The notes under the pieces: model-generated
Databases searched by the model: none
Seen by the model: only the letters and a program-made list of their open reading frames with translations
What the model was told of the DNA's origin: nothing
In this document: positions 1-64,000 of the stretch, piece by piece
Position numbering within the stretch: the first letter of the stretch is position 1
Layout of the letters: the number at the start of each line of letters is the position of its first letter
Program-made: the position numbers and the translations under genes
NCBI GenBank assembly: GCA_963662155.1
Contig: OY759263.1
Location: 28,498,023-28,562,022, forward strand
Length of the DNA: 64,000 nt
Direction: 5' to 3'
Origin: Lamellibrachia columna
Lineage: Eukaryota; Annelida; Polychaeta; Sabellida; Siboglinidae

Positions 1-187
1 TGATATATGAAACATCGAATATGATTGATATTTTCAATACAACTTTATATTTTAAAATAGTTGCATAGCACTCCTTCTGTTTTCATCGTGTGGTATCAAA
101 GATAGAGCTATATCATTTCTATATTTCAAAATGAAATCTGGAAAGGGATACACATAATTGCATTTGTAAACATTCGGTCGGTGTTAC
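1..187 (-). other. Partial A to C intron at left edge
   Basis: This is the acceptor-distal part of the intron following exon A of unit 1, P-type. The rest of it and the next C exon lie outside the window. Nothing else is seen. Confidence 0.8.
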
Positions 188-3100
188 CTGAAGCAGTCGT
201 ACTTTCTATCTCGAGAGGAGTAGTATCCAATGATGCAGTAGTAGAAGACGTCGCTGAAGTAGTGTCTTCCACGGTAGTTTTCCCTTCTACTACCGTACTT
301 GCTACAGTTGCTGAATAATCAAAATTAAAAAATAAATTACAAATATCATAGTTATATTATATTTATTTTCTATTTGTTATAATTAATATCAATCGTTCCA
401 TATGTACAACAAATTAGCAGTTTCGTAGTTTTTTCAATTAGGTAATAAAATATTAATAACGGACGAATAGATAAAACGATTATTTGAGATCAAACTTATA
501 CCTTCGCTAGTTATTTCGACGAAAGATGTTGTTCCTTCGACTGTTGTTTGTGCAGCTGTTCCAGTGGTCTCTGTCGAAATTATTGTTTCGGTTGACCCCG
601 TGGTAACATCCGCAGCTGTGGTTGTTGCTGAAAAAAAATACTTAAAATAGAGCTAAGCATTTAGTAGATGCCGGAATTAAATTATTTTCTGTAATGACAG
701 TTATATTGGTAAAGAAGTCTCATTGCCTACCCATCAAAATTACACTTATTTTTTAAACAGAAATGACAGTCATTTACCTTCGCTCGTTGTCTCAACAGAT
801 TGCGTCGTTCCTTCGATTGTACTTGTTTCAACTGACTCTGTAGTCGCTGCCGACGACAAGCTATCCGTCGATTCCGTTGTTTCCACAGGGGCTGTGGTGG
901 ATCCTGCCAGAAGAATATCATGTCAAATGCATTCATTGGTTTGAACTAAGACTTTTTTTAACAACACATTGAACATCCATATATATAAATGGAATAACAT
1001 TGAACATTATGCTGATTCATCAATGTTATGTGATTTGTTTCCAAGCTACAATTTTCGCTTATGCTTCATCAAACCTCATGTATTCATTTTGAAATATGAA
1101 ACAACGAATACGATTGATATTTTCAATACAACTTTATATTTTAAAATAGCTGCAAAGCACTCCTTCTGTTTTCTTCGTGTGGTATCAAAGATAGAGCTAT
1201 ATCATTTCTATATTTCCAAAATGACAACTGGAAAGGGATACACATAACTGCATTTGTAAACATTCGGTCGGTGTTACCTGAAGCAGTCGTACTTTCTATC
1301 TCGAGAGTAGTAGTATCCAATGATGCAGTAGTAGAAGACGTCGCTGAAGTAGTGTCTTCCTCGGTAATTTTCCCTTCTACTACCGTACTTGCTACAGTTG
1401 GTGAATAGTCAAAATTCAATAATAAATTACAAATATCAGAGTTATAATATATTTATTTTCTATTTATTATAATTAATATCAATCGTTCCATATGTTCAAC
1501 AAATTACCAGTTTCGTAGATATTTCAATTGGGTAATAAAATATTAGTAACGGGCGAATAGATAAAACGATTAGTTGAGATCATTCTTGTACCTTCGCTAG
1601 TTGTTTCGACGAAAGATGTTGTTCCTTCGATTGTTGTTTGTGCAGCTATTCCAGTGGTCTCTGTCGAAGTTATTGTTTCGGTTGACCCCGTGGTAACATC
1701 CGCAGCTGTGGTTGTTGCTGATAAAAAATTATTTGAAATAGAACTAAGCATTTAGTAGATGCAGGAATTAAATTATTTTCTGTAATGACATTTATATTGG
1801 TAAAGAAGTCTCATTGCCTACCCATCAAAATTACACTTATTTTTTAAACAGAAATGACAGTCATTTACCTTCGCTCGTTGTCTCAACAGATTGCGTCGAT
1901 CCTTCGATTGTACTTGTTTCAACTGACTCTGTAGTCGCTGCCGACGACAAGCTATCCTTCGATTCCGTTGTTTCCACAGGGACAGTGGTGGATCCTGCCA
2001 GAAGAATATGATGTCAAATTCTTTCATTGGTTTGAACGAAGACTTTTTTTAACAACACATTGAATATCCATATATATAAATGGAATAACATTGAACATTA
2101 TGCTGATTCATCAATGTTATGTGATTTGTTTCCAAGCTACAATTTTCGCTTTTGCATTATCAAACCTCATGTATTCATTTTTAAATATGAAACAACGAAT
2201 GCGATTGATATTTTCAGTACACCTTTATATTTTAAAATAGCTGCAAAGCACTCCTTCTGTTTTCTTCGTGTGATATCAAAGATAGAGCTATATCATTTCT
2301 ATATTTCCAAAATTACAACTGGAAATTGATACACATAACTGCATTTGTAAACATTCGGTCGGTGTTACCTGAAGCAGTCGTACTTTCTATCTCGAGAGTA
2401 GTAGTATCCAATGATGCAGTAGTAGAAGACGTCGCTGAAGTAGTGTCTTCCTCGGTAGTTTTCCCTTCAACTTTCGTACTTGCTACAGTTGGTGAATAAT
2501 CAAAATTCAACAATAAATTACAAATATCAGAGTTATAGTATATTTATTTTCTATTTATTATAATTAATATCAATCGTTCCATATGTTCAACAAATTAGCA
2601 GTTTCCTAGATATTTCAATTGGGTAATAAAATATTAATAACGGACGAATAGATAAAACGATTAGTTGAGATCATTCTTTTACCTTCGCTAGTTGTTTCGA
2701 CGAAAGATGTTGTTCCTTCGATTGTTGTTTGTGCAGCTGTTCCAGTGGTCTCTGTCGAAGTTATTGTTTCGGTAGACTCCGTGGTAACATCCACAGCTGT
2801 GGTTGTTGCTGAAAAAAAAATAATTGAAATAGAGCTAAGCATTTAGTAGATGCAGGAATTAAATTATTTTCTCTAATGACAGTTATATTGGAAAACAAGT
2901 CACATTGCCTACCCTTCAAAATTACACTCATTGTTTAAACAGAAATGACAGTAATTTACCTTCGCTCGTTGTCTCAACGGATGGCGTCGTTCCTTCAATT
3001 GTACTTGTTTCAACAGACTCTGTAGTCGCTGCCGACGACAAGCTATCCGTCGATTCCGTGGTTTCCACAGGGGCTGTGGTGGATCCTGCCAAAAGAATAT

Positions 3101-18100: not shown

Positions 18101-21100
18101 ATTTAATAGATGCAGGAATTAAATTATTTTCTCTAATGACAGTTATATTGGAAAACAAGTAACATTGCCTACCCTTCAAAATTACACTCATTGTTTAAAC
18201 AGAAATGACAGTCATTTACCTTCGCTCGTTGTCTCAACGGATGGCGTCGTTCTTTCAATTGTACTTGTTTCAACAGACTCTCTAGTCGCTGCCGACGACA
18301 AGCTATCCGTCGATTCCGTGGTTTCCACAGGGGCTGTGGTGGATCCTGCCAAAAGAATATCATGTCAAATGCATTCATTGGTTTGAACAAGACATTGTTT
18401 TAACAAAACATTGAACATCCATATATATAAATGGAATAACATTGAACATTATGCTGATTCATAAATGTTATGTGATTTGCTTCCAAGCTACAAGTTGCGC
18501 TTTTGCATTATCAAACCTCATGTATTAATTTTGAGATATGAAACATAGAATATGATTGATATTTTCAATACAACTTTATATTTTAAAATAGTTGCATAGC
18601 ACTCCTTCTGTTTTCATCGTTTGGTATCAAAGATAGAGCTATATCATTTCTATATTTCAAAATGAAATCTGGAAAGAGATACACATAATTGCATTTGTAA
18701 ACATTCGGTCGGTGTTACCTGAAGCAGTCGTACTTTCTATCTCGAGAGTAGTAGTATCCAATGATGCAATAGTAGAAGATGTCGCTGAAGTAGTGTCTTC
18801 CACGGTAGTTTTCCCTTCTACTACCGTACTTGCTACAGTTGCTGAATAATCAAAATTAAAAAATAAATTACAAATATCATAGTTATATTATATTTATTTT
18901 CTATTTGTTATAATTAATATCAATCGTTCCATATGTACAACAAATTAGCAGTTTCGTAGTTTTTTCAATTAGGTAATAAAATATTAATAACGGACGAATA
19001 GATAAAACGATTATTTGAGATCAAACTTATACCTTCGCTAGTTGTTTCGACGAAAGATTTTGTTCCTTCGACTGTTGTTTGTGCAGCTGTTCCAGTGGTC
19101 TCTGTCGAAATTATTGTTTCGGTTGACCCCGTGGTAACATCCGCAGCTGTGGTTGTTGCTGAAAAAAAATACTTAAAATAGAGCTAAGCATTTAGTAGAT
19201 GCCAGAATTAAATTATTTTCTGTAATGACAGTTATATTGGTAAACAAGCCACATTGCCTACCCATCAAAATTACACTGATTGTTTAAACAGAAATGACAG
19301 TCATTTACCTTCGCTCGTTGTCTCAACGGATTGCGTCGTTCCTTCGATTGTACTTGTTTCAACTGAATCTGTAGTTGCTGCCGACGACAAGCTATCCGTC
19401 GATTCCGTGTTTTCCACAGGAGCTGTGGTGGATCCTGCCAGAAGAACATCATGTCAAATGCATTCATTGGTTTGAACGAAGACTTTTTTTAACATCACAT
19501 TGAACATCCATATATATAAATGGAATAACATTGAACATTATGCTGATTCATCAATGTTATGTGATTTGTTTCCAAGCTACAATTTTCGCTTTTGCATTAT
19601 CAAACCTCATGTATTTATTTTAAAATATGAAAAAACGAATGCGATTGATATTTTCAGTACACCTTTATATTTTAAAATACCTGCAAAGCACTCCTTCTGT
19701 TTTCTTCGTGTGGTATCAAAGATAGAGCTATATCATTTCTATATTTCCAAAATGACAACTGGAAAGGGATACACATAACTGCATTTGTAAACATTCGGTC
19801 GGTGTTACCTGAAGCAGTCGTACTTTCTATCTCGAGAGTAGTAGTATCCAATGATGCAGTAGTAGAAGACGTCGCTGAAGTAGTGTTTTCCCCTGTAGTT
19901 TTCCCTTCTACTTCCGTACTTGCTACAGTTGGTGAATAGTCAAAATTCAACAATAAATTACAAATATCAGAGTTATAATATATTTATTTTCTATTTATTA
20001 TAATTAATATCAATCGTTCCATATGTTCAACAAATTAGCAGTTTCTAGATATTTCAATTGGGTAATAAAATATTAATAACGATCGAATAGATAAAACGAT
20101 TAGTTGAGATCATTCTTGTACCTTCGCTAGTTGTTTCGACGAAAGATGTTGCACCTTCGATTGTTGTTTGTGCAGCTGTTCCAGTGGTCTCTGTCGAAGT
20201 TATTGTTTCGGTAGACTCCGTGGTAACATCCACAGCTGTGGTTGTTGCAGAAAAAAAAATACTTGAAATAGAGCTAAGTATTTAGTAGATGCAGGAATTA
20301 AATTATTTTCTCTAATGACAGTTATATTGGAAAAAAAGTCACATTGCCTACCCTTCAAAATTACACTTATTGTTTAAACAGAAATGACAGTCATTTACCT
20401 TCGCTCGTTGTCTCAACGGATTTCGTCGTTCCTTCGATTGTACTTGTTTCAACTGACTCTGTAGTCGCTGCCGACGACAAGCTGTCCGTCGATTCCGTTG
20501 TTTCCACAGGGGCTGTGTTGGATCCTGCCAGAAGAATATCATGTCAAATGCATTCATTGGTTTGAAAGAAGACTTTTTTTAACAACACATTGAACATCCA
20601 TATATATAAATGGAATAACATTTAACATTATGCTCATTCATCAATGTTATGTGATTTGTTTCCAAGCTACAATTTTCGCTTTTGCATTATCAAACCTCAT
20701 GTATTCATTTTAAAATTTGAAACAACGAATGCGATTGATATTTTCAGTACACCTTTATATTTTAAAATAGCTGCAAAGCACTCCTTCTGTTTTCTTCGTG
20801 TGGTATCAAAGATAGAGCTATATCATTTCTATATTTCCAAAATGACAACTGGAAAGGGATACACGTAACTGCATTTGTAAACATTCGGTCGGTGTTACCT
20901 GAAGCAGTCGTACTTTCTATCTCGAGAGTAGTAGTATCCAATGATGCAGTAGTAGAAGAAGTCGCTGAAGTAGTGTCTTCCTCGGTAGTTTTCCCTTCTA
21001 CTTCCGTACTTGCTACAGTTGGTGAATAGTCAAAATAAAAAAATAAATTACAAATATCATAGTTATAATATATTTATTGTCTATTTATTATAATTAATAT

Positions 21101-24100
21101 CAATCGTTCCATATGTTCAACAAATTAGCAGTTTCGTAGGTGTTTCAATTAGGTAATAAAATATTAATAACGGACGAATAGATAAAACGATTATTTGAGA
21201 TAAAACTTGTACCTTCGCTAGTTGTTTCGACGAAAGATGTTGTTCCTTCGACTGTTGTTTGTGCAGCTGTTCCAGTGGTCTCTGTCGAAATTATTGTTTC
21301 GGTTGACCCCGTGGTAACATCCGCAGCTGTGGTTGTTGCTGAAAACAAATACTTGAAATAGAGCTAAGCATTTAGTAGATGCCAGAATTAAATTATTTTC
21401 TGTAATGACAGTTATATTGTTAAACAAGTCACATTGCCTACCCATCAAAATTACACTTATTGTTTAAACAGAAATGACAGTCATTTACCTTCGCTCGTTG
21501 TCTCAACGGATTGCGTCGTTCCTTCGATTGTACTTGTTTCAACTGACTCTGTAGTCGCTGCCGACGACAAGCTATCCGTCGATTCCGTTGTTTCCACAGG
21601 GGCAGTGGTGGATCCTGCCAGAAGAATATCATGTCAAATGCTTTCATTGGTTTGAACGAAGACTTTTTTTAACAACACATTGAACATCCATATATATAAA
21701 TGGAATAACATTGAACATTATGCTGATTCATCAATGTTATGTGATTTGTTTCCAAGCTACAATTTTCGCTTTTGCATTATCAAACCTCATGTATTCATTT
21801 TTAAATATGAAACAACGAATGCGATTGATATTTTCAGTACACCTTTATATTTTAAAATAGCTGCAAAGCACTCCTTCTGTTTTCTTCGTGTGGTATCAAA
21901 GATAGAGCTATATCATTTCTATATTTCCAAAATGACAACTGGAAAGGGATACACATAACTGCATTTGTAAACATTCGGTCGGTGTTACCTGAAGCAGTCG
22001 TACTTTCTATCTCGAGAGTAGTAGTATCCAATGATGCAGTAGTAGAAGACGTCGCTGAAGTAGTGTCTTCCTCGGTAATTTTCCCTTCTACTACCGTACT
22101 TGCTACAGTTGGTGAAAAGTCAAAATTCAATAATAAATTACAAATATCCGAGTTATAATATATTTATTTTCTATTTATTATAATTAATATAAATCGTTCC
22201 ATATGTTCAACAAATTACCAGTTTCGTAGATATTTCAATTGGGTAATAAAATATTAGTAATGGGCGAATAGATAAAACGATTAGTTGAGATCATTCTTGT
22301 ACCTTCGCTAGTTGTTTCGACGAAAGATGTTGTTCCTTCGATTGTTGTTTGTGCAGCTATTCCAGTGGTCTCTGTCGAAGTTATTGTTTCGGTTGACCGA
22401 ATTGGTTTGAACGAAGACTTTTTTTAACATCACATTGAACATCCATATATATAAATTGAATAACATTGAACATTATGCTGATTCATCAATGTTATGTGAT
22501 TTGCTTCCAAGCTACAATTTTCGCTTTTCCATTATCAAACCTCATGTATTCATTTTAAAATATGAAAAAACGAATGCGATTGATATTTTCAGTACACCTT
22601 TATATTTTATCAAAGATAGAGCTATATCATTTCTATATTTCCAAAATGACAACTGGAAAGGGATACACATAACTGCATTTGTAAACATTCGGTCGGTGTT
22701 ACCTGAAGCAGTCGTACTTTCTATCTCGAGAGTAGTAGTATCCAATGATGCAGTAGTAGAAGACGTCGCTGAAGTAGTGTTTTCCTCTGTAGTTTTCCCT
22801 TCTACTTCCGTACTTGCTACAGTTGGTGAATAGTCAAAATTCAACAATAAATTAAAATATCAGAGTTATAATATATTTATTTTCTATTTATTATAATTAA
22901 TATCAATCGTTCCATATGTTCAACAAATTAGCAGTTTCTAGATATTTCAATTGGGTAATAAAATATTAATAACGGGCGAATAGATAAAACGATTAGTTGA
23001 GATCATTCTTGTACCTTCGCTAGTTGTTTCGACGAAAGATGTTGTTCCTTCGATTGTTGTTTGTGCAGCTATTCCAGTGGTCTCTGTCGAAGTTATTGTT
23101 TCGGTTGACCCCGTGGTAACATTCGCAGCTGTGGTTGTTGCTGATAAAAAATTATTTGAAATAGAACTAAGCATTTAGTAGATGCAGGAATTAAATTATT
23201 TTCTGTAATGACATTTATATTGGTAAAGAAGTCTCATTGCCTACCCATCAAAATTACACTTATTGTTTAAACAGAAATGACAGTCATTTACCTTCGCTCG
23301 TTGTCTCAACGGATTGCGTCGTTCCTTCGATTGTACTTGTTTCAACTGAATCTGTAGTCGCTGCCGACGACAAGCTATCCGTCGATTCCGTGGTTTCCAC
23401 AGGAGCTGTGGTGGATCCTGCCAGAAGAACATCATGTCAAATGCATTCATTGGTTTGAACGAAGACTTTTTTTAACATCACATTGAACATCCATATATAT
23501 AAATGGAATAACATTGAACATTATGCTGATTCATCAATGTTATGTGATTTGCTTCCAAGCTACAATTTTCGCTTTTCCATTATCAAACCTCATGTATTCA
23601 TTTTAAAATATGAAAAAACGAATGCGATTGATATTTTCAGTACACCTTTATATTTTATCAAATATAGAGCTATATCATTTCTATATTTCCAAAATGACAA
23701 CTGGAAAGGGATACACATAACTGCATTTGTAAACATTCGGTCGGTGTTACCTGAAGCAGTCGTACTTTCTATCTCGAGAGTAGTAGTATCCAATGATGCA
23801 GTAGTAGAAGACGTCGCTGAAGTAGTGTTTTCCTCTGTAGTTTTCCCTTCTACTTCCGTACTTGCTACAGTTGGTGAATAGTCAAAATTCAACAATAAAT
23901 TAAAATATCAGAGTTATAATATATTTATTTTCTATTTATTATAATTAATATCAATCGTTCCATATGTTCAACAAATTAGCAGTTTCTAGATATTTCAATT
24001 GGGTAATAAAATATTAATAACGGGCGAATAGATAAAACGATTAGTTGAGATCATTCTTGTACCTTCGCTAGTTGTTTCGACGAAAGATGTTATACCTTCG

Positions 24101-27100
24101 ATTGTTGTTTGTGCAGCTGTTCCAGTGGTCTCTGTCGAAGTTATTGTTTCGGTAGACTCCGTGGTAACATCCACAGCTGTGGTTGTTGCAGAAAAAAAAA
24201 TACTTGAAATAGAGCTAAGCATTTAGTAGATGCAGGAATTAAATTATTTTCTGTAATGACATTTATATTGGTAAAGAAGTCTCATTGCCTACCCATCAAA
24301 ATTACACTTATTTTTTAAACAGAAATGACAGTCATTTACCTTCGCTCGTTGTCTCAACAGATTGCGTCGATCCTTCGATTGTACTTGTTTCAACTGACTC
24401 TGTAGTCGCTGCCGACGACAAGCTATCCGTCGATTCCGTTGTTTCCACAGGGGCAGTGGTGGATCCTGCCAGAAGAATATCATGTCAAATGCTTTCATTG
24501 GTTTGAACGAAGACTTTTTTTAACAACACATTGAACATCCATATATATAAATGGAATAACATTGAACATTATGCTGATTCATCAATGTTATGTGATTTGT
24601 TTCCAAGCTACAATTTTCGCTTTTGCATTATCAAACCTCATGTATTCATTTTTAAATATGAAACAACGAATGCGATTGATATTTTCAGTACACCTTTATA
24701 TTTTAAAATAGCTGCAAAGCACTCCTTCTGTTTTCTTCGTGTGGTATCAAAGATAGAGCTATATCATTTCTATATTTCCAAAATGACAACTGGAAAGGGA
24801 TACACATAACTGCATTTGTAAACATTCGGTCGGTGTTACCTGAAGCAGTCGTACTTTCTATCTCGAGAGTAGTAGTATCCAATGATGCAGTAGTAGAAGA
24901 CGTCGCTGAAGTAGTGATTTCCTCGGTAGTTTTCCCTTCTACTTTCGTACTTGCTACAGTTGGTGAATAGTCAAAATTCAACAATAAATTACAAATATCA
25001 GAGTTATAGTATATTTATTTTCTATTTATTATAATTAATATCAATCGTTCCATATGTTCAACAAATTAGCAGTCTCGTAGATATTTCAATTGGGTAATAA
25101 AATATTAATAACGGACGAATAGATAAAACGATTAGTTGAGATCATTCTTGTACCTTCGCTAGTTGTTTCGACGAAAGATGTTCCTTCGATTGTTGTTTGT
25201 GCAGCTGTTCCAGTGGTTTCTGTCGAAGTTATTGTTTCGGTAGACTCCGTGGTAACATCCACAGCTGTGGTTGTTGCTGAAAAAAAAATAATTGAAATAG
25301 AGCTAAGCATTTAGTAGATGCAGGAATTAAATTATTTTCTCTAATGACAGTTATATTGGAAAACAAGTCACATTGCCTACCCTTCAAAATTACACTCATT
25401 GTTTAAACAGAAATGACAGTCATTTACCTTCGCTCGTTGTCTCAACGGATGGCGTCGTTCCTTCAATTGTACTTGTTTCAACAGACTCTGTAGTCGCTGC
25501 CGACGACAAGCTATCCGTCGATTCCGTGGTTTCCACAGGGGCTGTGGTGGATCCTGCCAAAAGAATATCATGTCAAATGCATTCATTGGTTTGAACAAGA
25601 CATTGTTTTAACAAAACATTGAACATCCATATATATAAATGGAATAACATTGAACATTATGCTGATTCATAAATGTTATGTGATTTTCTTCCAAGCTACA
25701 AGTTGCGCTTTTGCATTATCAAACCTCATGTATTAATTTTGATATATGAAACATCGAATATGATTGATATTTTCAATACAACTTTATATTTTAAAATAGT
25801 TGCATAGCACTCCTTCTGTTTTAATCGTGTGGTATCAAAGATAGAGCTATATCATTTCTATATTTCAAAATGAAATCTGGAAAGGGATACACATAATTGC
25901 ATTTGTAAACATTCGGTCGGTGTTACCTGAAGCAGTCGTACTTTCTATCTCGAGAGTAGTAGTATCCAATGATGCAGTAGTAGAAGACGTCGCTGAAGTA
26001 GTTTCTTCCACGGTAGATTTCCCTTCTACTACCGTACTTGCTACAGTTGCTGAATAATCAAAATTAAAAAATAAATTACAAATATCATAGTTATATTAAA
26101 TTTTTTTTTGTATTTGTTATAATTAATATCAATCGTTCCATATGTACAACAAATTAGCAGTTTCGTAGTTTTTTCAATTAGGTAATAAAATATTAATAAC
26201 GGACGAATAGATAAAACGATTATTTGAGATCAAACTTATACCTTCGCTAGTTGTTTCGACGAAAGATGTTGTTCCTTCGACTGTTGTTTGTGCAGCTGTT
26301 CCAGTGGTCTCTGTCGAAATTATTGTTTCGGTTGACCCCGTGGTAACATCCGCAGCTGTGGTTGTTGCTGAAAAAAATACTTAAAATAGAGCTAAGCATT
26401 TAGTAGATGCAGGAATTAAATTATTTTCTGTAATGACAGTTATATTGGTAAAGAAGTCTCATTGCCTACCCATCAAAATTACACTTATTTTTTAAACAGA
26501 AATGACAGTCATTTACCTTCGCTCGTTGTCTCAACAGATTGCGTCGTTCCTTCGATTGTACTTGTTTCAACTGACTCTGTAGTCGCTGCCGACGACAAGC
26601 TATCCGTCGATTCCGTTGTTTCCACAGGGGCAGTGGTGGATCCTGCCAGAAGAATATCATGTCAAATGCTTTCATTGGTTTGAACGAAGACTTTTTTTAA
26701 CAACACATTGAACATCCATATATATAAATGGAATAACATTGAACATTATGCTGATTCATCAATGTTATGTGATTTGTTTCCAAGCTACAATTTTCGCTTT
26801 TGCATTATCAAACCTCATGTATTCATTTTAAAATATGAAACAACGAATGCGATTGATATTTTCAGTACACCTTTATATTTTAAAATAGCTGAAAAGCACT
26901 CCTTCTGTTTTCTTCGTGTGGTATCAAAGATAGAGCTATATCATTTCTATATTTCCAAAATGACAACTGGAAAGGGATACACTTAACTGCATTTGTAAAC
27001 ATTCGGTCGGTGTTACCTGAAGCAGTCGTACTTTCTATCTCGAGAGTAGTAGTATCCAATGATGCAGTAGTAGAAGACGTCGCTGAAGTAGTGTCTTCCT

Positions 27101-30100
27101 CGGTAATTTTCCCTTCTACTACCGTACTTGCTACAGTTGGTGAAAAGTCAAAATTCAATAATAAATTACAAATATCCGAGTTATAATATATTTATTTTCT
27201 ATTTATTATAATTAATATAAATCGTTCCATATGTTCAACAAATTACCAGTTTCGTAGATATTTCAATTGGGTAATAAAATATTAGTAATGGGCGAATAGA
27301 TAAAACGATTAGTTGAGATCATTCTTGTACCTTCGCTAGTTGTTTCGACGAAAGATGTTGTTCCTTCGATTGTTGTTTGTGCAGCTATTCCAGTGGTCTC
27401 TGTCGAAGTTATTGTTTCGGTTGACCCCGTGGTAACATTCGCAGCTGTGGTTGTTGCTGATAAAAAATTATTTGAAATAGAACTAAGCATTTAGTAGATG
27501 CAGGAATTAAATTATTTTCTGTAATGACATTTATATTGGTAAAGAAGTCTCATTGCCTACCCATCAAAATTACACTTATTTTTTAAACAGAAATTACAGT
27601 CATTTACCTTCGCTCGTTGTCTCAACAGATTGCGTCGATCCTTCGATTGTACTTGTCTCAACTGACTCTGTAGTCGCTGCCGACGACAAGCTATCCGTCG
27701 ATTTCGTTGTTTCCACATGGGCTGTGTTGGATCCTGCCAGAAGAATATCATGTCAAATGCATTCATTGGTTTGAAAGAAGACTTTTTTTAACAACACATT
27801 GAACATCCATATATATATAAATGGAATAACATTGAACATTATGCTGATTCATCAATGTTATGTGATTTGTTTCCAAGCTACAATTTTCGCTTTTGCATTA
27901 TCAAACCTCATGTATTCATTTTAAAATTTGAAACAACGAATGCGATTGATATTTTCAGTACACCTTTATATTTTAAAATAGCTGCAAAGCACTCCTTCTG
28001 TTTTCTTCGTGTGGTATCAAAGATAGAGCTATATAATTTCTATATTTCCAAAATGACAACTGGAAAGGGATACACATAACTGCATTTGTAAACATTCGGT
28101 CGGTGTTACCTGAAGCAGTCGTACTTTCTATCTCGAGAGTAGTAGTATCCAATGATGCAGTAGTAGAAGAAGTCGCTGAAGTAGTGTCTTCCTCGGTAGT
28201 TTTCCCTTCTACTTCCGTACTTGCTACAGTTGGTGAATAATCAAAATTAAAAAATAAATTACAAATATCATAGTTATAATATATTTATTGTCTATTTATT
28301 ATAATTAATATCAATCGTTCCATATGTTCAACAAATTAGCAGTTTCGTAGATATTTCAATTGGGTAATACAATATTAATAACGGACGAATAGATAAAACG
28401 ATTAGTTGAGATCATTCTTGTACCTTCGCTAGTTGTTTCGACGAAAGATTTTGTTCCTTCGATTGTTGTTTGTGCAGCTGTTCCAGTGGTCTCTTTCGAA
28501 ATTATTGTTTCGGATGACCCCGTGGTAACATCCGCAGCTGTGGTTGTTGCTGAAAAAAAATTATTTGAAATAGAACTAAGCATTTAGTAGATGCAGGATT
28601 AAATTATTTTCTGTAATGACATTTATATTGGTAAAGAAGTCTCATTGCCTACCCATCAAAATTACACTTATTTTTTAAACAGAAATGAGTCATTTACCTT
28701 CGCTCGTTGTCTCAACAGATTGCGTCGTTCCTTCGATTGTACTTGTTTCAACTGACTCTGTAGTCGCTGCCGACGACAAGCTATCCGTCGATTCCGTTGT
28801 TTCCACAGGGGCTGTGGTGGATCCTGCCAGAAGAATATCATGTCAAATGCATTCATTGGTTTGAACGAAGACTTTTTTTAACAACACATTGAACATCCAT
28901 ATATATAAATGGAATAACATTGAACATTATGCTGATTCATCAATGTTATGTGATTTGCTTCCAAGCTACAATTTTCGCTTTTCCATTATCAAACCTCATG
29001 TATTCATTTTAAAATATGAAAAAACGAATGCGATTGATATTTTCAGTACACCTTTATATTTTATCAAAGATAGAGCTATATCATTTCTATATTTCCAAAA
29101 TGACAACTGGAAAGGGATACACATAACTGCATTTGTAAACATTCGGTCGGTGTTACCTGAAGCAGTCGTACTTTCTATCTCGAGAGTAGTAGTATCCAAT
29201 GATGCAGTAGTAGAAGACGTCGCTGAAGTAGTGTTTTCCTCTGTAGTTTTCCCTTCTACTTCCGTACTTGCTACAGTTGGTGAATAGTCAAAATTCAACA
29301 ATAAATTAAAATATCAGAGTTATAATATATTTATTTTCTATTTATTATAATTAATATCAATCGTTCCATATGTTCAACAAATTAGCAGTTTCTAGATATT
29401 TCAATTGGGTAATAAAATATTAATAACGGGCGAATAGATAAAACGATTAGTTGAGATCATTCTTGTACCTTCGCTAGTTGTTTCGACGAAAGATGTTATA
29501 CCTTCGATTGTTGTTTGTGCAGCTGTTCCAGTGGTCTCTGTCGAAGTTATTGTTTCGGTAGACTCCGTGGTAACATCCACAGCTGTGGTTGTTGCAGAAA
29601 AAAAAATACTTGAAATAGAGCTAAGCATTTAGTAGATGCAGGAATTAAATTATTTTCTCTAATGACAGTTATATTGGAAAAAAAGTCACATTGCCTACCC
29701 TTCAAAATTACACTTATTGTTTAAACAGAAATGACAGTCATTTACCTTCGCTCGTTGTCTCAACGGATTTCGTCGTTCCTTCGATTGTACTTGTTTCAAC
29801 TGACTCTGTAGTCGCTGCCGACGACAAGCTATCCGTCGATTCCGTTGTTTCCACAGGGGCTGTGTTGGATCCTGCCAGAAGAATATCATGTCAAATGCAT
29901 TCATTGGTTTGAAAGAAGACTTTTTTTAACAACACATTGAACATCCATATATATAAATGGAATAACATTGAACATTATGCTCATTCATCAATGTTATGTG
30001 ATTTGTTTCCAAGCTACAATTTTCGCTTATGCTTCATCAAACCTCATGTATTCATTTTGAAATATGAAACAACGAATACGATTGATATTTTCAATACAAC

Positions 30101-33100
30101 TTTATATTTTAAAATAGCTGCAAAGCACTCCTTCTGTTTTCTTCGTGTGGTATCAAAGATAGAGCTATATAATTTCTATATTTCCAAAATGACAACTGGA
30201 AAGGGATACACATAACTGCATTTGTAAACATTTGGTCGGTGTTACCTGAAGCAGTCGTACTTTCTATCTCGAGAGTAGTAGTATCCAATGATGCAGTAGT
30301 AGAAGAAGTCGCTGAAGTAGTGTCTTCCTCGGTAGTTTTCCCTTCTACTTCCATACTTGCTACAGTTGGTGAATAGTCAAAATTAAAAAATAAATTACAA
30401 ATATCATAGTTATAATATATTTATTGTCTATTTATTATAATTAATATCAATCGTTCCATATGTTCAACAAATTAGCAGTTTCGTAGGTGTTTCAATTAGG
30501 TAATAAAATATTAATAACGGACGAATAGATAAAACGATTATTTGAGATAAAACTTGTACCTTCGCTAGTTGTTTCGACGAAAGATGTTGTTCCTTCGACT
30601 GTTGTTTGTGCAGCTGTTCCAGTGGTCTCTGTCGAAATTATTGTTTCGGTTGACCCCGTGGTAACATCCGCAGCTGTGGTTGTTGCTGAAAACAAATACT
30701 TGAAAAAGAGCTAAGCATTTAGTAGATTCCGGAGTTAAATTATTTTCTGTAATGACAGTTATATTGGTAAACAAGTCACATTGCCTACCCATCAAACTTA
30801 CACTTATTGTTTAAACAGAAATGACAGTCATTTACCTTCGCTCGTTGTCTCAACGGATTGCGTCGTTCTTTCGATTGTACTTGTTTCAACTGACTCTGTA
30901 GTCGCTGCCGACGACAAGCTATCCGTCGATTCCGTGGTTTCCACAGGGGCTGTGGTGGATCCTGCCAGAAGAACATCATGTCCAATGCATTCATTGGTTT
31001 GAACGAAGACTTTTTTAACAACACATTGAACATCCAAATATATAAATGGAATAACATTGAACATTATGCTGATTCATCAATGTTATGTGATTTGTTTCCA
31101 AGCTACAATTTTCGCTTTTGCACTATCAAACCTCATGTATTCATTTTTAAATATAAAACAACGAATGCGATTGATATTTTCAGTACACCTTTATATTTTA
31201 AAATAGCTGCAAAGCACTCCTTCTGTTTTCTTCGTGTGGTATCAAAGATAGAGCTATATCATTTCTATATTTCCAAAATGACAACTGGAAAGGGATACAC
31301 ATAACTGCATTTGTAAACATTCGGTCGGTGTTACCTGAAGCAGTCGTACTTTCTATCTCGAGAGTAGTAGTATCCAATGATGCAGTAGTAGAAGACGTCG
31401 CTGAAGTAGTGTCTTCCTCGGTAGTTTTCCCTTCTACTTTCGTACTTGCTACAGTTGGTGAATAGTCAAAATTCAACAATAAATTACAAATATCAGAGTT
31501 ATAGTATATTTATTTTCTATTTATTATAATTAATATCAATCGTTCCATATGTTCAACAAATTAGCAGTTTCGTAGATATTTTAATTGGGTAATAAAATAT
31601 TAATAACGGACGAATAGATAAAACGATTAGTTGAGATCATTCTTGTACCTTCGCTAGTTGTTTCGACGAAAGATGTTGTTCCTTCGATTGTTGTTTGCGC
31701 AGCTGTTCCAGTGGTCTCTGTCGAAGTTATTGTTTCGGTAGACTCCGTGGTAACATCCACAGCTGTGGTTGTTGCTGAAAAAAAAAAATTTAAATAGAAC
31801 TAAGCATTTAGTAGATGCAGGAATTAAATTATTTTCTCTAATGACAGTTATATTGGAAAACAAGTCACATTGCCTACCCTTCAAAATTACACTCATTGTT
31901 TAAACAGAAATGACAGTCATTTACCTTCGCTCGTTGTCTCAACGGATCGCGTCGTTCCTTCAATTGTACTTGTTTCAACAGACTCTGTAGTCGCTGCCGA
32001 CGACAAGCTATCCGTCGATTCCGTGGTTTCCACAGGGGCTGTGGTGGATCCTGCCAAAAGAATATCATGTCAAATGCATTCATTGGTTTGAACAAGACAT
32101 TGTTTTAACAAAACATTGAACATCCATATATATAAATGGAATAACATTGAACATTATGCTGATTCATAAATGTTATGTGATTTGCTTCCAAGCTACAAGT
32201 TGCGCTTTTGCATTATCAAACCTCATGTATTAATTTTGATATATGAAACATCGAATATGATTGATATTTTCAATACAACTTTATATTTTAAAATAGTTGC
32301 ATAGCACTCCTTCTGTTTTCATCGTGTGGTATCAAAGATAGAGCTATATCATTTCTATATTTCAAAATGAAATCTGGAAAGGGATACACATAATTGCATT
32401 TGTAAACATTCGGTCGGTGTTACCTAAAGCAGTCGTACTTTCTATCTCGAGAGTAGTAGTATCCAATGATGCAGTAGTAGAAGACGTCGCTGAAGTAGTG
32501 TCTTCCACGGTAGTTTTCCCTTCTACTACCGTACTTGCTACAGTTGCTGAATAATCAAAATTAAAAAATAAATTACAAATATCATAGTTATATTATATTT
32601 ATTTTCTATTTGTTATAATTAATATCAATCGTTCCATATGTACAACAAATTAGCAGTTTCGTAGTTTTTTCAATTAGGTAATAAAATATTAATAACGGAC
32701 GAATAGATAAAACGATTATTTGAGATCAAACTTATACCTTCGCTAGTTGTTTCGACGAAAGATGTTGTTCCTTCGACTGTTGTTTGTGCAGCTGTTCCAG
32801 TGGTCTCTGTCGAAATTATTGTTTCGGTTGACCCCGTGGTAACATCCGCAGCTGTGGTTGTTGCTGAAAAAAAAAAACTTAAAATAGAGCTAAGCATTTA
32901 GTAGATGCCAGAATTAAATTATTTTCTGTAATGACAGTTATATTGGTAAACAAGCCACATTGCCTACCCATCAAAATTACACTGATTGTTTAAACAGAAA
33001 TGACAGTCATTTACCTTCGCTCGTTGTCTCAACGGATTGCGTCGTTCCTTCGATTGTACTTGTTTCAACTGAATCTGTAGTCGCTGCCGACGACAAGCTA

Positions 33101-36100
33101 TCCGTCGATTCCATGGTTTCCACAGGAGCTGTGGTGGATCCTGCCAGAAGAACATCATGTCAAATGCATTCATTGGTTTGAACGAAGACTTTTTTTAACA
33201 TCACATTGAACATCCATATATATAAATGGAATAACATTGAACATTATGCTGATTCATCAATGTTATGTGATTTGTTTCCAAGCTACAATTTTCGCTTTTG
33301 CATTATCAAACCTCATGTATTCATTTTAAAATATGAAAAAACGAATGCGATTGATATTTTCAGTACACCTTTATATTTTAAAATACCTGCAAAGCACTCC
33401 TTCTGTTTTCTTCGTGTGGTATCAAAGATAGAGCTATATCATTTCTATATTTCCAAAATGACAACTGGAAAGGGATACACATAACTGCATTTGTAAACAT
33501 TCGGTCGGTGTTACCTGAAGCAGTCGTACTTTCTATCTCGAGAGTAGTAGTATCCAATGATGCAGTAGTAGAAGACGTCGCTGAAATAGTGTTTTCCTCT
33601 GTAGTTTTCCCTTCTACTTCCGTACTTGCTACAGTTGGTGAATAGTCAAAATTCAACAATAAATTACAAATATCAGAGTTATAATATATTTATTTTCTAT
33701 TTATTATAATTAATATCAATCGTTCCATATGTTCAACAAATTAACAGTTTCTAGATATTTCAATTGGGTAATAAAATATTAATAACGGGCGAATAGATCA
33801 AACGATTAGTTGAGATCATTCTTGTACCTTCGCTAGTTGTTTCGACGAAAGATGTTATACCTTCGATTGTTGTTTGTGCAGCTGTTCCAGTGGTCTCTGT
33901 CGAAGTTATTGTTTCGGTAGACTCCGTGGTAACATCCACAGCTGTGGTTGTTGCAGAAAAAAAAATACTTGAAATAGAGCTAAGCATTTAGTAGATGCAG
34001 GAATTAAATTATTTTCTCTAATGACAGTTATATTGGAAAACAAGTCACATTGCCTACCCTTCAAAATTACACTTATTGTTTAAACAGAAATGACAGGCAT
34101 TTACCTTCGCTCGTTGTCTCAACGGATTTCGTCGTTCCTTCGATTGTACTTGTTTCAACTGACTCTGTAGTCGCTGCCGACGACAAGCTATCCGTCGATT
34201 CCGTTGTTTCCACAGGGGCTGTGTTGGATCCTACCAGAAGAATATCATGTCAAATGCATTCATTGGTTTGAAAGAAGACTTTTTTTAACAACACATTGAA
34301 CATCCATATATATATAAATGGAATAACATTGAACATTATGCTCATTCATCAATATTATGTGATTTGTTTCCAAGCTACTATTTTCGCTTTTGCATTATCA
34401 AACCTCATGTATTCATTTTAAAATTTGAAACAACGAATGCGATTGATATTTTCAGTACACCTTTATATTTTAAAATAGCTGCAAAGCACTCCTTCTGTTT
34501 TCTTCGTGTGGTATCAAAGATAGAGCTATATCATTTCTATATTTCCAAAATGACAACTGGAAAAGGATACACATAACTGCATTTGTAAACATTCGGTCGG
34601 TGTTACCTGAAGCAGTCGTACTTTCTATCTCGAGAGTAGTAGTATCCAATGATGCAGTAGTAGAAGAAGTCGCTGAAGTAGTGTCTTCCTCGGTAGTTTT
34701 CCCTTCTACTTCCGTACTTGCTACAGTTGGTGAATAATCAAAATTAAAAAATAAATTACAAATATCATAGTTATAATATATTTATTGTCTATTTATTATA
34801 ATTAATATCAATCGTTCCATATGTTCAACAAATTAGCAGTTTCGTAGGTGTTTCAATTAGGTAATAAAATATTAATAACGGACGAATAGATAAAACGATT
34901 ATTTGAGATAAAACTTGTACCTTCGCTAGTTGTTTCGACGAAAGATGTTGTTCCTTCGACTGTTGTTTGTGCAGCTGTTCCAGTGGTCTCTGTCGAAATT
35001 ATTGTTTCGGTTGACCCCGTGGTAACATCCGCAGCTGTGGTTGTTGCTGAAAACAAATACTTGAAATAGAGCTAAGCATTTAGTAGATGCAGGAATTAAA
35101 TTATTTTCTGTAATGACAGTTATATTGGTAAACAAGTCACATTGCCTACCCATCAAAATTACACTTATTGTTTAAACAGAAATGACAGTAATTTACCTTC
35201 GCTCGTTGTCTCAACGGATTGCGTCGTTCTTTCGATTGTACTTGTTTCAACTGACTCTGTAGTCGCTGCCGACGACAAGCTATCCGTCGATTCCGTGGTT
35301 TCCACAGTGGCTGTGGTGGAACCTGCCAGAAGAATATCATGTCAAATGCATTCATTGGTTTGAACGAAGACTTTTTTTAACAACACATTGAACATCCATA
35401 TATATAAATGGAATAACATTGAACATTATGCTGATTCATCAATGTTATGTGATTTGTTTCCAAGCTACAATTTTCGCTTATGCTTCATCAAACCTCATGT
35501 ATTCATTTTGAAATTTGAAACAACGAATACGATTGATATTTTCAATACAACTTTATATTTTAAAATAGCTGCAAAGCACTTCTTCTGTTTTCTTCGTGTG
35601 GTATCAAAGATAGAGCTATATCATTTCTATATTTCCAAAATGACAACTGGAAAGGAATACACATAACTGCATTTGTAAACATTCGGTCGGTGTTACCTGA
35701 AGCAGTCGTACTTTCTATCTCGAGAGTAGTAGTATCCAATGATGCAGTAGTAGAAGACGTCGCTGAAGTAGTGTCTTCCTCGGTAATTTTCCCTTCTACT
35801 ACCGTACTTGCTACAGTTGGTGAATAGTCAAAATTCAATAATAAATTACAAATATCCGAGTTATAATATATTTATTTTCTATTTATTATAATTAATATCA
35901 ATCGTTCCATATGTTCAACAAATTACCAGTTTCGTAGATATTTCAATTGGGTAATAAAATATTAGTAACGGGCGAATAGATAAAACGATTAATTGAGATC
36001 ATTCTTGTACCTTCGCTAGTTGTTTCAACGAAAGATGTTGTTCCTTCGATTGTTGTTTGTGCAGCTATTCCAGTGGTCTCTGTCGAAATTATTGTTTCGG

Positions 36101-45100: not shown

Positions 45101-48100
45101 CGTCGATTCCGTTGTTTCCACAGGGACAGTGGTGGATCCTGCCAAAAGAATATCATGTCAAATGCATTCATTGGTTTGAACGAAGACTTTTTTTAACAAA
45201 ACATTGAACATCCATATATATAAATGGAATAACATTGAACATTATGCTGATTCATCAATGTTATGTGATTTGTTTCCAAGCTACAATTTTCGCTTATGCT
45301 TCATCAAACCTCATGTATTCATTTTGAAATATGAAACAACGAATACGATTGATATTTTCAATACAACTTTATATTTTAAAATAGCTGCAAAGCACTCCTT
45401 CTGTTTTCTTCGTGTGGTATCAAAGATAGAGCTATATCATTTCTATATTTCCAAAATGACAACTGGAAAGGGATACACATAACTGCATTTGTAAACATTC
45501 GGTCGGTGTTACCTGAAGCAGTCGTACTTTCTATCTCGAGAGTAGTAGTATCCAATGATGCAGTAGTAGAAGATATCGCTGAAGTAGTGTCTTCCTCGGT
45601 AATTTTCCCTTCTACTACCGTACTTGCTACAGTTGGTGAATAGTCAAAATTCAACAATAAATTACAAATATCAGAGTTATATTATATTTATTTTCTATTT
45701 ATTATAATTAATATCAATCGTTCCATATGTTCAACAAATTAGCAGTTTCGTAGATATTTCAATTGGGTAATAAAATATTAATAACGGACGAATAGATAAA
45801 ACGATTAGTTGAGATCATTCTTGTACCTTCGCTAGTTGTTTCGACGAAAGATGTTGTTCCTTCGATTGTTGTTTGTGCAGCTGTTCCAGTGGTCTCTTTC
45901 GAAATTATTGTTTCGGATGACCCCGTGGTAACATCCGCAGCTGTGGTTGTTGCTGAAAAAAAATTATTTGAAATAGAACTAAGCATTTAGTAGATGCAGG
46001 AATTAAATTATTTTCTGTAATGACATTTATATTGGTAAAGAAGTCTCATTGCCTACCCATCAAAATTACACTTATTTTTTAAACAGAAATGACAGTCATT
46101 TACTTTCGCTCGTTGTCTCAACAGATTGCGTCGTTCCTTCGATTGTACTTGTTTCAACTGACTCTGTAGTCGCTGCCGACGACAAGCTATCCGTCGATTC
46201 CGTTGTTTCCACAGGGGCTGTGGTGGATCCTGCCAGAAGAATATCATGTCAAATGCATTCATTGGTTTGAACGAAGACTTTTTTTAACAACACACTGAAC
46301 ATCCATATATATAAATGGAATAACATTGAACATTATGCTGATTCATCAATGTTATGTGATTTGTTTCCAAGCTACAATTTTCGCTTATGCTTTATCAAAC
46401 CTCATGTATTCATTTTGAAATATGAAACAACGAATACGATTGATATTTTCAATACAACTATATATTTTAAAATAGCTGCAAAGCACTCCTTCTGTTTTCT
46501 TCGTGTGGTATCAATGATAGAGCTATATCATTTCTATATTTCCAAAATGACAACTGGAAAGGGATACACATAACTGCATTTGTAAACATTCGGTCGGTGT
46601 TACCTGAAGCAGTCGTACTTTCTATCTCGAGAGTAGTAGTATCCAATGATGCAGTAGTAGAAGACGTCGCTGAAGTAGTGTCTTCCTTGGTAATTTTCCC
46701 TTCTACTACCGTACTTGCTACAGTTGGTGAATAGTCAAAATTCAATAATAAATTACAAATATCAGAGTTATAATATATTTATTTTCTATTTATTATAATT
46801 AATATCAATCGTTCCATATGTTCAACAAATTACCAGTTTCGTAGATATTTCAATTGGGTAATAAAATATTAGTAACGGGCGAATAGATAAAACGATTAGT
46901 TGAGATCATTCTTGTACCTTCGCTAGTTGTTTCGACGAAAGATGTTGTTCCTTCGATTGTTGTTTGTGCAGCTATTCCAGTGGTCTCTGTCGAAGTTGTT
47001 GTTTCGGTTGACCCCGTGGTAACATCCGCAGCTGTGGTTGTTGCTGATAAAAAATTATTTGAAATAGAACTAAGCATTTAGTAGATGCAGGAATTAAATT
47101 ATTTTCTGTAATGACATTTATATTGGTAAAGAAGTCTCATTGCCTACCCATCAAAATTACACTTATTTTTTAAACAGAAATGACAGTCATTTACCTTCGC
47201 TCGTTGTCTCAACAGATTGCGTCGATCCTTCGATTGTACTTGTTTCAACTGACTCTGTAGTCGCTGCCGACGACAAGCTATCCGTCGATTCCGTTGTTTC
47301 CACAGGGGCAGTGGTGGATCCTGCCAGAAGAATATCATGTCAAATGCTTTCATTGGTTTGAACGAAGACTTTTTTTAACAACACATTGAACATCCATATA
47401 TATAAATGGAATAACATTGAACATTATGCTGATTCATCAATGTTATGTGATTTGTTTCCAAGCTACAATTTTCGCTTTTGCATTATCAAACCTCATGTAT
47501 TCATTTTTAAATATGAAACAACGAATGCGATTGATATTTTCAGTACACCTTTATATTTTAAAATAGCTGAAAAGCACTCCTTCTGTTTTCTTCGTGTGGT
47601 ATCAAAGATAGAGCTATATCATTTCTATATTTCCAAAATGACAACTGGAAAGGGATACACATAACTGCATTTGTAAACATTCGGTCGGTGTTACCTGAAG
47701 CAGTCGTACTTTCTATCTCGAGAGTAGTAGTATCCAATGATGCAGTAGTAGAAGACGTCGCTGAAGTAGTGTCTTCCTCGGTAGTTTTCCCTTCTACTTT
47801 CGTACTTGCTACAGTTGGTGAATAGTCAAAATTCAACAATAAATTACAAATATCAGAGTTATAGTATATTTATTTTCTATTTATTATAATTAATATCAAT
47901 CGTTCCATATGTTCAACAAATTAGCAGTTTCGTAGATATTTCAATTGGGTAATAAAATATTAATAACGGACGAATAAATAAAACGATTAGTTGAGATCAT
48001 TCTTGTACCTTCGCTAGTTGTTTCGACGAAAAATGTTGTTCCTTCGATTGTTGTTTGTGCAGCTGTTCCAGTGGTCTCTGTCGAAGTTATTGTTTCGGTA

Positions 48101-60100: not shown

Positions 60101-63100
60101 TCCGCAGCTGTGGTTGTTGCTGATAAAAAATTATTTGAAATAGAACTAAGCATTTAGTAGATGCAGGAATTAAATTATTTTCTGTAATGACATTTATATT
60201 GGTAAAGAAGTCTCATTGCCTACCCATCAAAATTACACTTATTTTTTAAACAGAAATGACAGTCATTTACCTTCGCTCGTTGTCTCAACAGATTGCGTCG
60301 TTCCTTCGATTGTACTTGTTTCAACTGACTCTGTAGTCGCTGCCGACGACAAGCTATCCGTCGATTCCGTTGTTTCCACAGGGGCTGTGGTGGATCCTGC
60401 CAGAAGAATATCATGTCAAATGCATTCATTGGTTTGAACGAAGACTTTTTTTAACAACACATTGAACATCCATATATATAAATGGAATAACATTGAACAT
60501 TATGCTGATTCATCAATGTTATGTGATTTGTTTCCAAGCTACAATTTTCGCTTATGCTTTATCAAACCTCATGTATTCATTTTGAAATATGAAAAACGAA
60601 TACGATTGATATTTTCAATACAACTATATATTTTAAAATAGCTGCAAAGCACTCCTTCTGTTTTCTTCGTGTGGTATCAAAGATAGAGCTATATCATTTC
60701 TATATTTCCAAAATGACAACTGGAAAGGGATACACATAACTGCATTTGTAAACATTCGGTCGGTGTTACCTGAAGCAGTCGTACTTTCTATCTCGAGAGT
60801 AGTAGTATCCAATGATGCAGTAGTAGAAGACGTCGCTGAAGTAGTGTCTTCCTCGGTAGTTTTCCCTTCTACTTCCGTACTTGCTACACTTGGTGAATAG
60901 TCAAAATTCAATAATAAATTACAAATATCAGAGTTATAATATATTTATTTTCTATTTATTATAATTAATATCAATCGTTCCATATGTTCAACAAATTACC
61001 AGTTTCGTAGATATTTCAATTGGGTAATAAAATATTAGTAACGGGCGAATAGATAAAACGATTAGTTGAGATCATTCTTGTACCTTCGCTAGTTGTTTCG
61101 ACGAAAGATGTTGTTCCTTCGATTGTTGTTTGTGCAGCTGTTCCAGTGGTCTCTGTCGAAGTTATTGTTTCGGTTGACCCCGTGGTAACATCCGCAGCTG
61201 TGGTTGATGCTGATAAAAAATTATTTGAAATAGAACTAAGCATTTAGTAGATGCAGGAATTAAATTATTTTCTGTAATGACATTTATATTGGTAAAGAAG
61301 TCTCATTGCCTAACCATCAAAATTACACTTATTTTTTAAACAGAAATGACAGTCATTTACCTTCGCTCGTTGTCTCAACAGATTGCGTCGATCCTTCGAT
61401 TGTACTTGTTTCAACTGACTCTGTAGTCGCTGCCGACGACAAGCTATCCGTCGATTCCGTTGTTTCCACAGGGGCAGTGGTGGATCCTGCCAGAAGAATA
61501 TCATGTCAAATGCTTTCATTGGTTTGAACGAAGACTTTTTTTAACAACACATTGAACATCCATATATATAAATGGAATAACATTGAACATTATGCTGATT
61601 CATCAATGTTATGTGATTTGTTTCCAAGCTACAATTTTCGCTTTTGCATTATCAAACCTCATGTATTAATTTTGATATATGAAACATCGAATATGATTGA
61701 TATTTTCAATACAACTTTATATTTTAAAATAGTTGCATAGCACTCCTTCTGTTTTCATCGTGTGGTATCAAAGATAGAGCTATATCATTTCAATATTTCA
61801 AAATGAAATCTGGAAAGGGATACACATAATTGCATTTGTAAACATTCGTTCGGTGTTACCTGAAGCAGTCGTACTTTCTATCTCGAGAGTAGTAGTATCC
61901 AATGATGCAGTAGTAGAAGACGTCGCTGAAGTAGTGTCTTCCACTGTAGTTTTCCCTTCTACTACCGTACTTGCTACAGTTGCTGAATAATCAAAATTAA
62001 AAAATAAATTACAAATATCATAGTTATATTATATTTATTTTCTATTTGTTATAATTAATATCAATCGTTCCATATGTACAACAAATTAGCAGTTTCGTAG
62101 TTTTTTCAATTAGGTAATAAAATATTAATAACGGACGAATAGATAAAACGATTATTTGAGATCAAACTTATACCTTCGCTAGTTGTTTCGACGAAAGATG
62201 TTGTTCCTTCGACTGTTGTTTGTGCAGCTGTTCCAGTGGTCTCTGTCGAAATTATTGTTTCGGTTGACCCCGTGGTAACATCCGCAGCTGTGGTTGTTGC
62301 TGAAAAAATATACTTAAAATAGAGCTAAGCATTTAGTAGATGTCGGAATTAAATTATTTTCTGTAATGACAGTTATATTGGTAAAGAAGTCTCATTGCCT
62401 ACCCATCAAAATTACACTTATTTTTTAAACAGAAATGACAGTCATTTACCTTCGCTCGTTGTCTCAACAGATTGCGTCGTTCCTTCGATTGTACTTGTTT
62501 CAACTGACTCTGTAGTCGCTGCCGACGACAAGCTATCCGTCGATTCCGTTGTTTCCACAGGGGCTGTGGTGGATCCTGCCAGAAGAATATCATGTCAAAT
62601 GCATTCATTGGTTTGAACGAAGACTTTTTTTAACAACACATTGAACATCCATATATATAAATGGAATAACATTGAACATTATGCTGATTCATCAATGTTA
62701 TGTGATTTGTTTCCAAGCTACAATTTTCGCTTATGCTTTATCAAACCTCATGTATTCATTTTGAAATATGAAACAACGAATACGATTGATATTTTCAATA
62801 CAACTATATATTTTAAAATAGCTGCAAAGCACTCCTTCTGTTTTCTTCGTGTGGTATCAAATATAGAGCTATATCATTTCTATATTTCCAAAATGACAAC
62901 TGGAAAGGGATACACATAACTGCCTTTGTAAACATTCGGTCGGTGTTACCTGAAGCAGTCGTACTTTCTATCTCGAGAGTAGTAGTATCCAATGATGCAG
63001 TAGTAGAAGACGTCGCTGAAGTAGTGTCTTCCTCGGTAATTTTCCCTTCTACTACCGTACTTGCTACAGTTGGTGAATAGTCAAAATTCAATAATAAATT

Positions 63101-64000: not shown

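Follow-up and report, generated by a model that had tools for sequence, protein, structure and literature searches.

A tandem array of phase 1-1 exons in Lamellibrachia columna as the probable middle of a giant gene for a secreted mucin-like protein

The stretch of DNA analysed here (hereafter the window) comprises 64,000 nucleotides of the genome of Lamellibrachia columna and was located at C3:28,498,023-28,562,022 of the host assembly (879.7 Mb, 30 contigs). Judged from its sequence, the window is probably the middle of one giant minus-strand gene for a secreted mucin-like protein, a reading to which we give a probability of about 0.68. Anchor scanning and genome location place the entire window (1-64000) inside an uninterrupted tandem array of units of about 1,090 bp (array 1), neither edge of which is reached. 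The evidence comes from the exon and splice-site structure of the units, from the composition of the predicted product, from the similarity of exons in array 1 to those of a second, adjoining array, and from a test of the mutations that have accumulated among the units.

A scan with a 45-base anchor found 59 copies on the minus strand of the window. Of their 58 spacings, 54 measure 1,087-1,093 bp and one 1,083 bp; the other three are shorter, at 1,047, 1,048 and 714 bp. On the minus strand of each unit lie exons B and A, of 126 nt each, and exon C, of 114 nt, all of phase 1-1; exon A is 123 nt long in two window copies, which keeps the frame. Unit alignment and splice sites give, in one example unit, exon B at 778-903 (CAG/GATCC...GAAG/GTAAAT, slashes marking the splice boundaries) and exon A at 502-627 (CAG/CAACAACC...GAAG/GTATAA). 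Exon C, for example at 188-301, is 114 nt long when a TGTAG acceptor is used and 123 nt (to 310) when an upstream CAG acceptor is used. Any array exon can be deleted or skipped without loss of frame, as all are phase 1-1. An Rfam scan of the window gave no matches.

Splice sites in the window were counted over 58 units (u01-u58). The donor GT is present in 58/58 copies of exons C and A and in 57/58 of exon B, which is deleted in one unit, and the exon B acceptor AG is likewise found in 57/58, the exon being deleted in the remaining unit. The exon C acceptor AG at the 114-nt boundary is present in 57/58 units. Another AG lies 9 nt upstream in 10/58 units, including the only one in which the downstream AG is missing, and its use would lengthen the exon by three codons. 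An earlier view of exon C as mostly unspliceable, based on the absence of the upstream AG from 48/58 units, was dropped because an in-frame downstream AG is found in 57/58. The exon A acceptor is AG in 53/58 units and CTG in four, located by alignment at 33517-34608 (where CAG has become CTG and an in-frame AG follows 12 nt downstream), 29159-30247, 23753-24841 and 19811-20900, all on the minus strand. The 714-bp unit lacks this site. The unit in question, u38 (21991-22704, minus strand), was recognised from its spacing and alignment and has lost exon B and part of exon A, and since the exons are phase 1-1 its reading frame would be kept if splicing left out the damaged exon.

Similar results were obtained over a larger sample of array 1, in which 229 anchors were read in two blocks (215 and 14). 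The 215 include a degenerate copy lying apart from the others, and the scan overlooked one anchor within a 2,179-bp interval. From 227 intervals, those of 600-1,250 bp were kept and two (2,179 and 4,205 bp) were dropped, leaving 225 units. The donor GT is present in 224 units for exon A, 224 for exon C and 223 for exon B, and the exon B acceptor AG in 221, the rest for exon B being gaps. The exon C acceptor AG is found in 223/225 units, and the remaining two have the upstream AG. Both acceptor types of exon C coexist in the array, as the upstream AG is present in 85/225 units (83 of them also with the downstream AG) and absent from 140/225; exon C possibly has a tandem acceptor that would add three residues. 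In exon A, a CACAG motif kept 12 nt inside the exon could act as an in-frame acceptor. Short units are also found in array 1 (976 bp twice, 851 bp and 714 bp), thus damaged units persist.

Spliced from exons with intact sites only, the 171 window exons encode 6,947 residues without a stop. The first-pass annotation had described 59 minus-strand units of about 1.09 kb and more than 170 tiny phase-1 exons, and both descriptions agree with the 59 anchors, spaced mostly at 1,083-1,093 bp, and with the 171 intact exons, all phase 1-1. Its statement that every exon is flanked by AG and GT applies to nearly all sites, the exceptions being the exon A acceptor (AG in 53/58) and the one deleted exon B; its figure of about 7,100 residues was slightly too high. 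The product consists of Thr (34.0%), Ser (16.9%), Glu (14.0%) and Pro (0.9%) among other residues and has no Cys, and Met rounds to 0.0% of the 6,947 residues. A Ser/Thr-rich, repeated, low-complexity region, as mucins are broadly defined, is therefore present (51% Ser plus Thr), in support of a mucin-like product, though Pro is only 0.9% and Glu is 14.0%. The 122-residue unit matched no Pfam family at E<=0.01.

Array 1 spans about C3:28,291,665 to 28,691,547, i.e. about 400 kb and, by arithmetic, about 367 units. It thus runs beyond the window on both sides, in agreement with the earlier remark that the product has no visible end; that annotation understated the extent, because array 1 is about six times as long as the window and a second array comes after it. 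Exact matches to a 30-base word of exon A number 207 in the genome, always on the minus strand, with 119 in the block that was read and 88 below that block; together these make up the full number, and the word is therefore found at a single locus. Array 2 lies downstream of array 1 on the same strand (28,291,118 to 28,254,523) and consists of 21 copies of a D1-D2-D3-D4 unit of 1.70-1.75 kb plus one D1. Its 85 exons of 123, 123, 123 and 90 nt, taken from matches of at least 88% identity and in agreement with the count by locus, have an acceptor AG in 84/85 and a donor GT in 85/85 cases and contain no stops. D1-D3 are related to A and B, with nucleotide identities of 0.58-0.77 versus 0.52-0.54 after shuffling in six exon pairs, while the introns flanking the compared exons exceed the shuffled identity by no more than 0.05. 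Exons but not introns are therefore conserved between the arrays, which marks the exon boundaries independently of splice models.

For the mutation test, variants among units were compared with a neutral rate taken from the intron substitution spectrum, using the 219 units (of 225) whose exon lengths are normal. Nonsynonymous variants number 237 against 261.5 expected, synonymous variants 89 against 90.4, and nonsense variants a nominal 2 against 21.0. The two nominal nonsense variants were called against the consensus codon and are not stops in their own codon context, leaving no in-frame stop in 657 exons. In the window alone (58 units, u38 left out) the observed and expected numbers are 78 and 96.6 for nonsynonymous, 26 and 31.3 for synonymous, and 0 and 8.5 for nonsense variants. 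In the introns, which served as controls, 33-40 nonsense variants were observed versus 36.5-40.1 expected over six frames. Given 0/657 exons with a stop against 21.0 expected nonsense variants, it is very unlikely that the frames are open by chance, and together with the exon-only conservation and a ratio of nonsynonymous to synonymous substitution rates (dN/dS) below 1 this bears out the coding on the minus strand claimed earlier. The near-expected nonsynonymous count and the lack of stops indicate that recent amino acid changes are hardly constrained, whereas stops are eliminated. Among the older exon types A, B and D1-D4, 13 of the 15 pairs have dN/dS values of 0.11-0.55 (the other two were saturated, and exon C was left out); therefore, the amino acid sequence has also been held over longer times. 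Gains of Cys among units were 0 versus 3.6 expected, numbers too small to be firm.

A candidate 5' end was found at C3:28,699,508 on the minus strand, where an ATG and 15 codons, MKYIHFILIMALVAA, are followed by G and a GTGAGT donor, giving phase 1. Its hydrophobic N-terminal sequence is signal-peptide-like, and the exon would be spliced to the array. A TATA-like box, TATAAATA, judged by eye, precedes the ATG by about 80 bases. The exon that follows (28,697,421; 90 nt, phase 1-1, acceptor GCAG) is Ser/Thr-rich, as is a further phase 1-1 exon of 132 nt located 3' of the arrays at 28,250,726. Ig-like and EGF-like exons follow on the same strand about 20-35 kb beyond the arrays (28,232,966-28,224,755 and L036) and may form the C-terminal part of the giant gene. 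The Ig-like He_PIG domain stayed under its 24-bit cut-off in a single exon (19.8 bits) and reached 29.4 bits when the next exon was joined to it. EGF_CA scored 40.9, 33.3 and 32.7 bits (cut-off 27), and other EGF-type exons were below their own cut-offs. A protein search with the repeat product and the 3' exons, in which the 3' part was scored, returned 8 matches among 305 candidates, which cover 32-44% of the query at 24-35% identity; no family could be taken from them, one being a sponge 'fibrillin-2-like' protein and the rest unnamed, hypothetical or Ig/PKD-domain proteins (one bacterial). EGF-bearing proteins are among the matches listed (60 of 81 at E<=1) in a search of solved structures with the 3' composite, and the best match to the part before the EGFs had E=0.52.

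The following model may be proposed. The signal exon MKYIHFILIMALVAA would be spliced through arrays 1 and 2, as its phase 1 end fits every later array exon, and the gene would possibly end in the Ig-like and EGF-like exons farther 3'. Since the window product is 51% Ser/Thr and lacks Cys, a long O-glycosylated brush is the predicted structure. Unequal exchange between units, each holding exons together with introns, would lengthen and shorten the arrays. Because gain, loss or skipping of an exon or unit would keep the frame, length could vary freely, with selection removing the stops. By a DNA count that includes unread units, the predicted number of exons is about 1,190 (about 367 units of three, plus 85), and the predicted length is about 48,000 residues (367 x 122 plus about 3,250; range 47,000-48,000), or fewer if lost acceptors mean lost exons. 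We consider it an even bet that all of this forms a single gene of at least about 445 kb, in which some 1,190 exons encode a secreted glycoprotein of approximately 47,000-48,000 residues and which changes in length by whole units with its frame intact. Such a product would be among the longest predicted polypeptides; PKZILLA-1 has about 45,000 residues.

Several points weigh against this reading. The exon A acceptor has no AG in 15 of the 225 units (13 owing to substitutions and two because the unit is damaged), and in four of the 225 units a total of five exons have frame-breaking lengths. The wrong sense frames of the exons are also short of nonsense variants (21 versus 32.1 and 18 versus 27.5 expected). 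Antisense frames show 15 versus 17.2, 1 versus 10.2 and 22 versus 28.9, and antisense frame 1, which has the single nonsense variant, is open in the consensus. The antisense deficit may partly result from overlap with the sense-strand codons, and the deficit in the sense frame is the strongest in absolute terms. About 138 units (C3:28,307,348-28,458,022) are known from exact exon A words alone, which keep the 1,090-bp register across these 150 kb except in two places. The sequence between the 5' exons and array 1 contains long microsatellites, degraded copies of exons and stretches resembling mobile elements, and the 3' side of the locus is covered in part by the sequence read. A protein search with two repeat units gave no match at E<=0.001 among the 7,984 candidates sharing most words with the query. 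In the searchable sequence, AMOP had 34 genome matches, none of them on C3, and VWD had 85 (150 of 277 candidates scored), none at C3:28.2-28.7 Mb. The gene was therefore not assigned to MUC4, and a MUC4-like identity is no more than possible.

Identity among the 225 units averages 95.4% and is lower near the edges (bins of 0.936 and 0.932) than in the middle (up to 0.961), the pattern expected if exchange homogenises the centre. This accords with the earlier proposal that the repeats were amplified with their introns and that the gene grows as genomic units. Tandem structure, distant block copies and less homogenised edges would also be seen in a satellite-like array, in which units captured from a mucin gene had spread as DNA and most copies were non-functional, and recent nonsynonymous changes are indeed near expectation (237 versus 261.5). 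We nevertheless regard this as very improbable, because 657 exons carry no stop where 21.0 were expected, frame-breaking lengths are confined to five exons, conservation is limited to exons with dN/dS below 1 between exon types, and the adjoining second array has the same strand and the same exon grammar. It is more improbable still that a real but much shorter gene was inflated during assembly. A 16-unit block does recur 98 kb apart at 0.986-1.0 identity per unit, and the longest exact repeat in the 264-kb block that was read reaches 7,396 bp. On the other hand, units differ by about 4.6% on average, the assembly comprises 30 contigs, and, if the assembly was built from HiFi reads, 7.4 kb is less than the typical read length.

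An unlikely but less remote alternative is that the exons are coding and that the array is divided by several promoters or terminators, or most of its exons skipped, giving a set of shorter mucins of variable length. Any subset of phase 1-1 exons would be legal, and the exon A acceptors without AG (15/225) together with the tandem acceptors of exon C (83/225) make splice variation likely. This is opposed by the great rarity of Met in the window product and by the absence of stops throughout the part that was read, which implies that selection acts on all of it. In addition, division into separate transcripts is disfavoured by the location of the sole signal-peptide-like exon seen, outside the array, the introns not having been searched for others.

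Some further observations concern the arrays and their surroundings. The two copies of the 16-unit block (28,468-28,485 and 28,566-28,583 kb, about 98 kb apart) share exon A acceptor changes in three matching units; the window lies between them and contains neither. On both sides the arrays are flanked by tracts of (TA)n, (CA)n and tetranucleotide repeats of great length (L022 1360-2200 and L035 7540-9220). A 701-residue open reading frame matching reverse transcriptase (L033 6169-8274, plus strand; C3 at about 28.23 Mb), with PF00078 in its matches, lies among the EGF-type exons on the opposite strand, and relatives up to 94% identical are among the matches listed (120 of 7,745). Broken open reading frames resembling, by eye, parts of a Ty3-type element are located 5' of the signal exon (L023 8712-9886 and L024 37-986, minus strand). 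Elsewhere, VWD matches cluster at C3:49.69-50.36 Mb and AMOP matches at C14:6.9-7.2, 22.1 and 25.0 Mb, and the host genome seems rich in VWD and AMOP genes.

If the locus gives one transcript, it exceeds titin both in exon number (about three times) and in protein length, and the question arises of how a cell transcribes more than 440 kb, accurately splices out more than a thousand short introns and secretes a mucin of several megadaltons. The array is also a natural test of exon-phase symmetry, since damaged units are present, yet no in-frame stop occurs in 657 exons. Its length is likely polymorphic, so that length could be studied directly against the properties of the mucus.

The first-pass annotation contrasted the locus with most mucins, whose repeats sit inside one large exon. 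The contrast is fair, as the abstract of a 2026 preprint states that all mucins harbor a large exon with a variable number of tandem repeats (PMC13345508), but the arrangement is not unique, having smaller-scale counterparts in MUC16, SmPoMuc and MaSp2. MUC16 has a 156-residue repeat encoded by five exons, with about 1.9 kb per repeat and at least 60 repeats (PMC3431878). It is likewise a giant mucin with a multi-exon repeat unit amplified together, three exons per 1.09-kb unit in the present case. Its repeats, however, hold a folded SEA domain, whereas the 122-residue unit has no Pfam match and no Cys and is present in about 367 copies. In SmPoMuc of Schistosoma mansoni, an exon and its flanking introns form genomic repeats of about 1 kb, homogenised and with introns more than 94% identical; there is one 27-nt exon per repeat and up to 20 repeats per gene in the genome, with up to 100 reported in transcripts (PMC2576457). 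The likeness to the 1,090-bp units with 95.4% mean identity is evident, the differences being three exons of 114-126 nt per unit and about 367 repeats. In the spider genes for MaSp2 (Argiope) and flagelliform spidroin, highly homogenised introns separate the repeats, some of the genes have two-exon, two-intron core units, and unequal crossing over was proposed for them (PMC9779670). They differ in encoding another protein, of silk composition. These silk genes also have far fewer exons than the array described here.

In Tetrahymena, leucine-rich repeat genes hold tandem 90-bp exons separated by phase-2 introns, and these arrays have been explained by unequal crossing over, to which retrotransposition may have contributed (PMC6564038). 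Tandem exons of equal length and a uniform intron phase are common to both systems, which differ in phase, in the leucine-rich repeat domains and in the presence of thousands of genes versus one giant gene. Titin (connectin), with 363 exons, 38,138 residues and 283 kb (PMC12198301), is also a giant protein whose gene grew by internal duplication, but it has folded Ig/FN3 domains, a muscle function, fewer exons and a shorter protein than predicted here. MUC4-like mucins combine NIDO-AMOP-VWD, EGF and transmembrane parts (PMC9080433, PMC8660890). The locus would resemble them in having a Ser/Thr-rich region after a putative signal peptide, and may do so in the same-strand exons for Ig-like and EGF-like domains on its 3' side, whose link to the array is putative; it differs in that the sequence searched gave no AMOP or VWD match there. 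The part of a slug mucus genome paper drawn on here contains nothing on a gene of this type (PMC13336835), and a limited literature search, a weak test, found no gene with more exons than titin and no precedent at such a scale. With MUC16, SmPoMuc, MaSp2 and the Tetrahymena genes as precedents, the amplification of exons together with introns is therefore not new. What is unusual in L. columna is the scale, the presence of two neighbouring arrays of the same exon family, with three-exon and four-exon units, and the evidence for maintenance of the frame.
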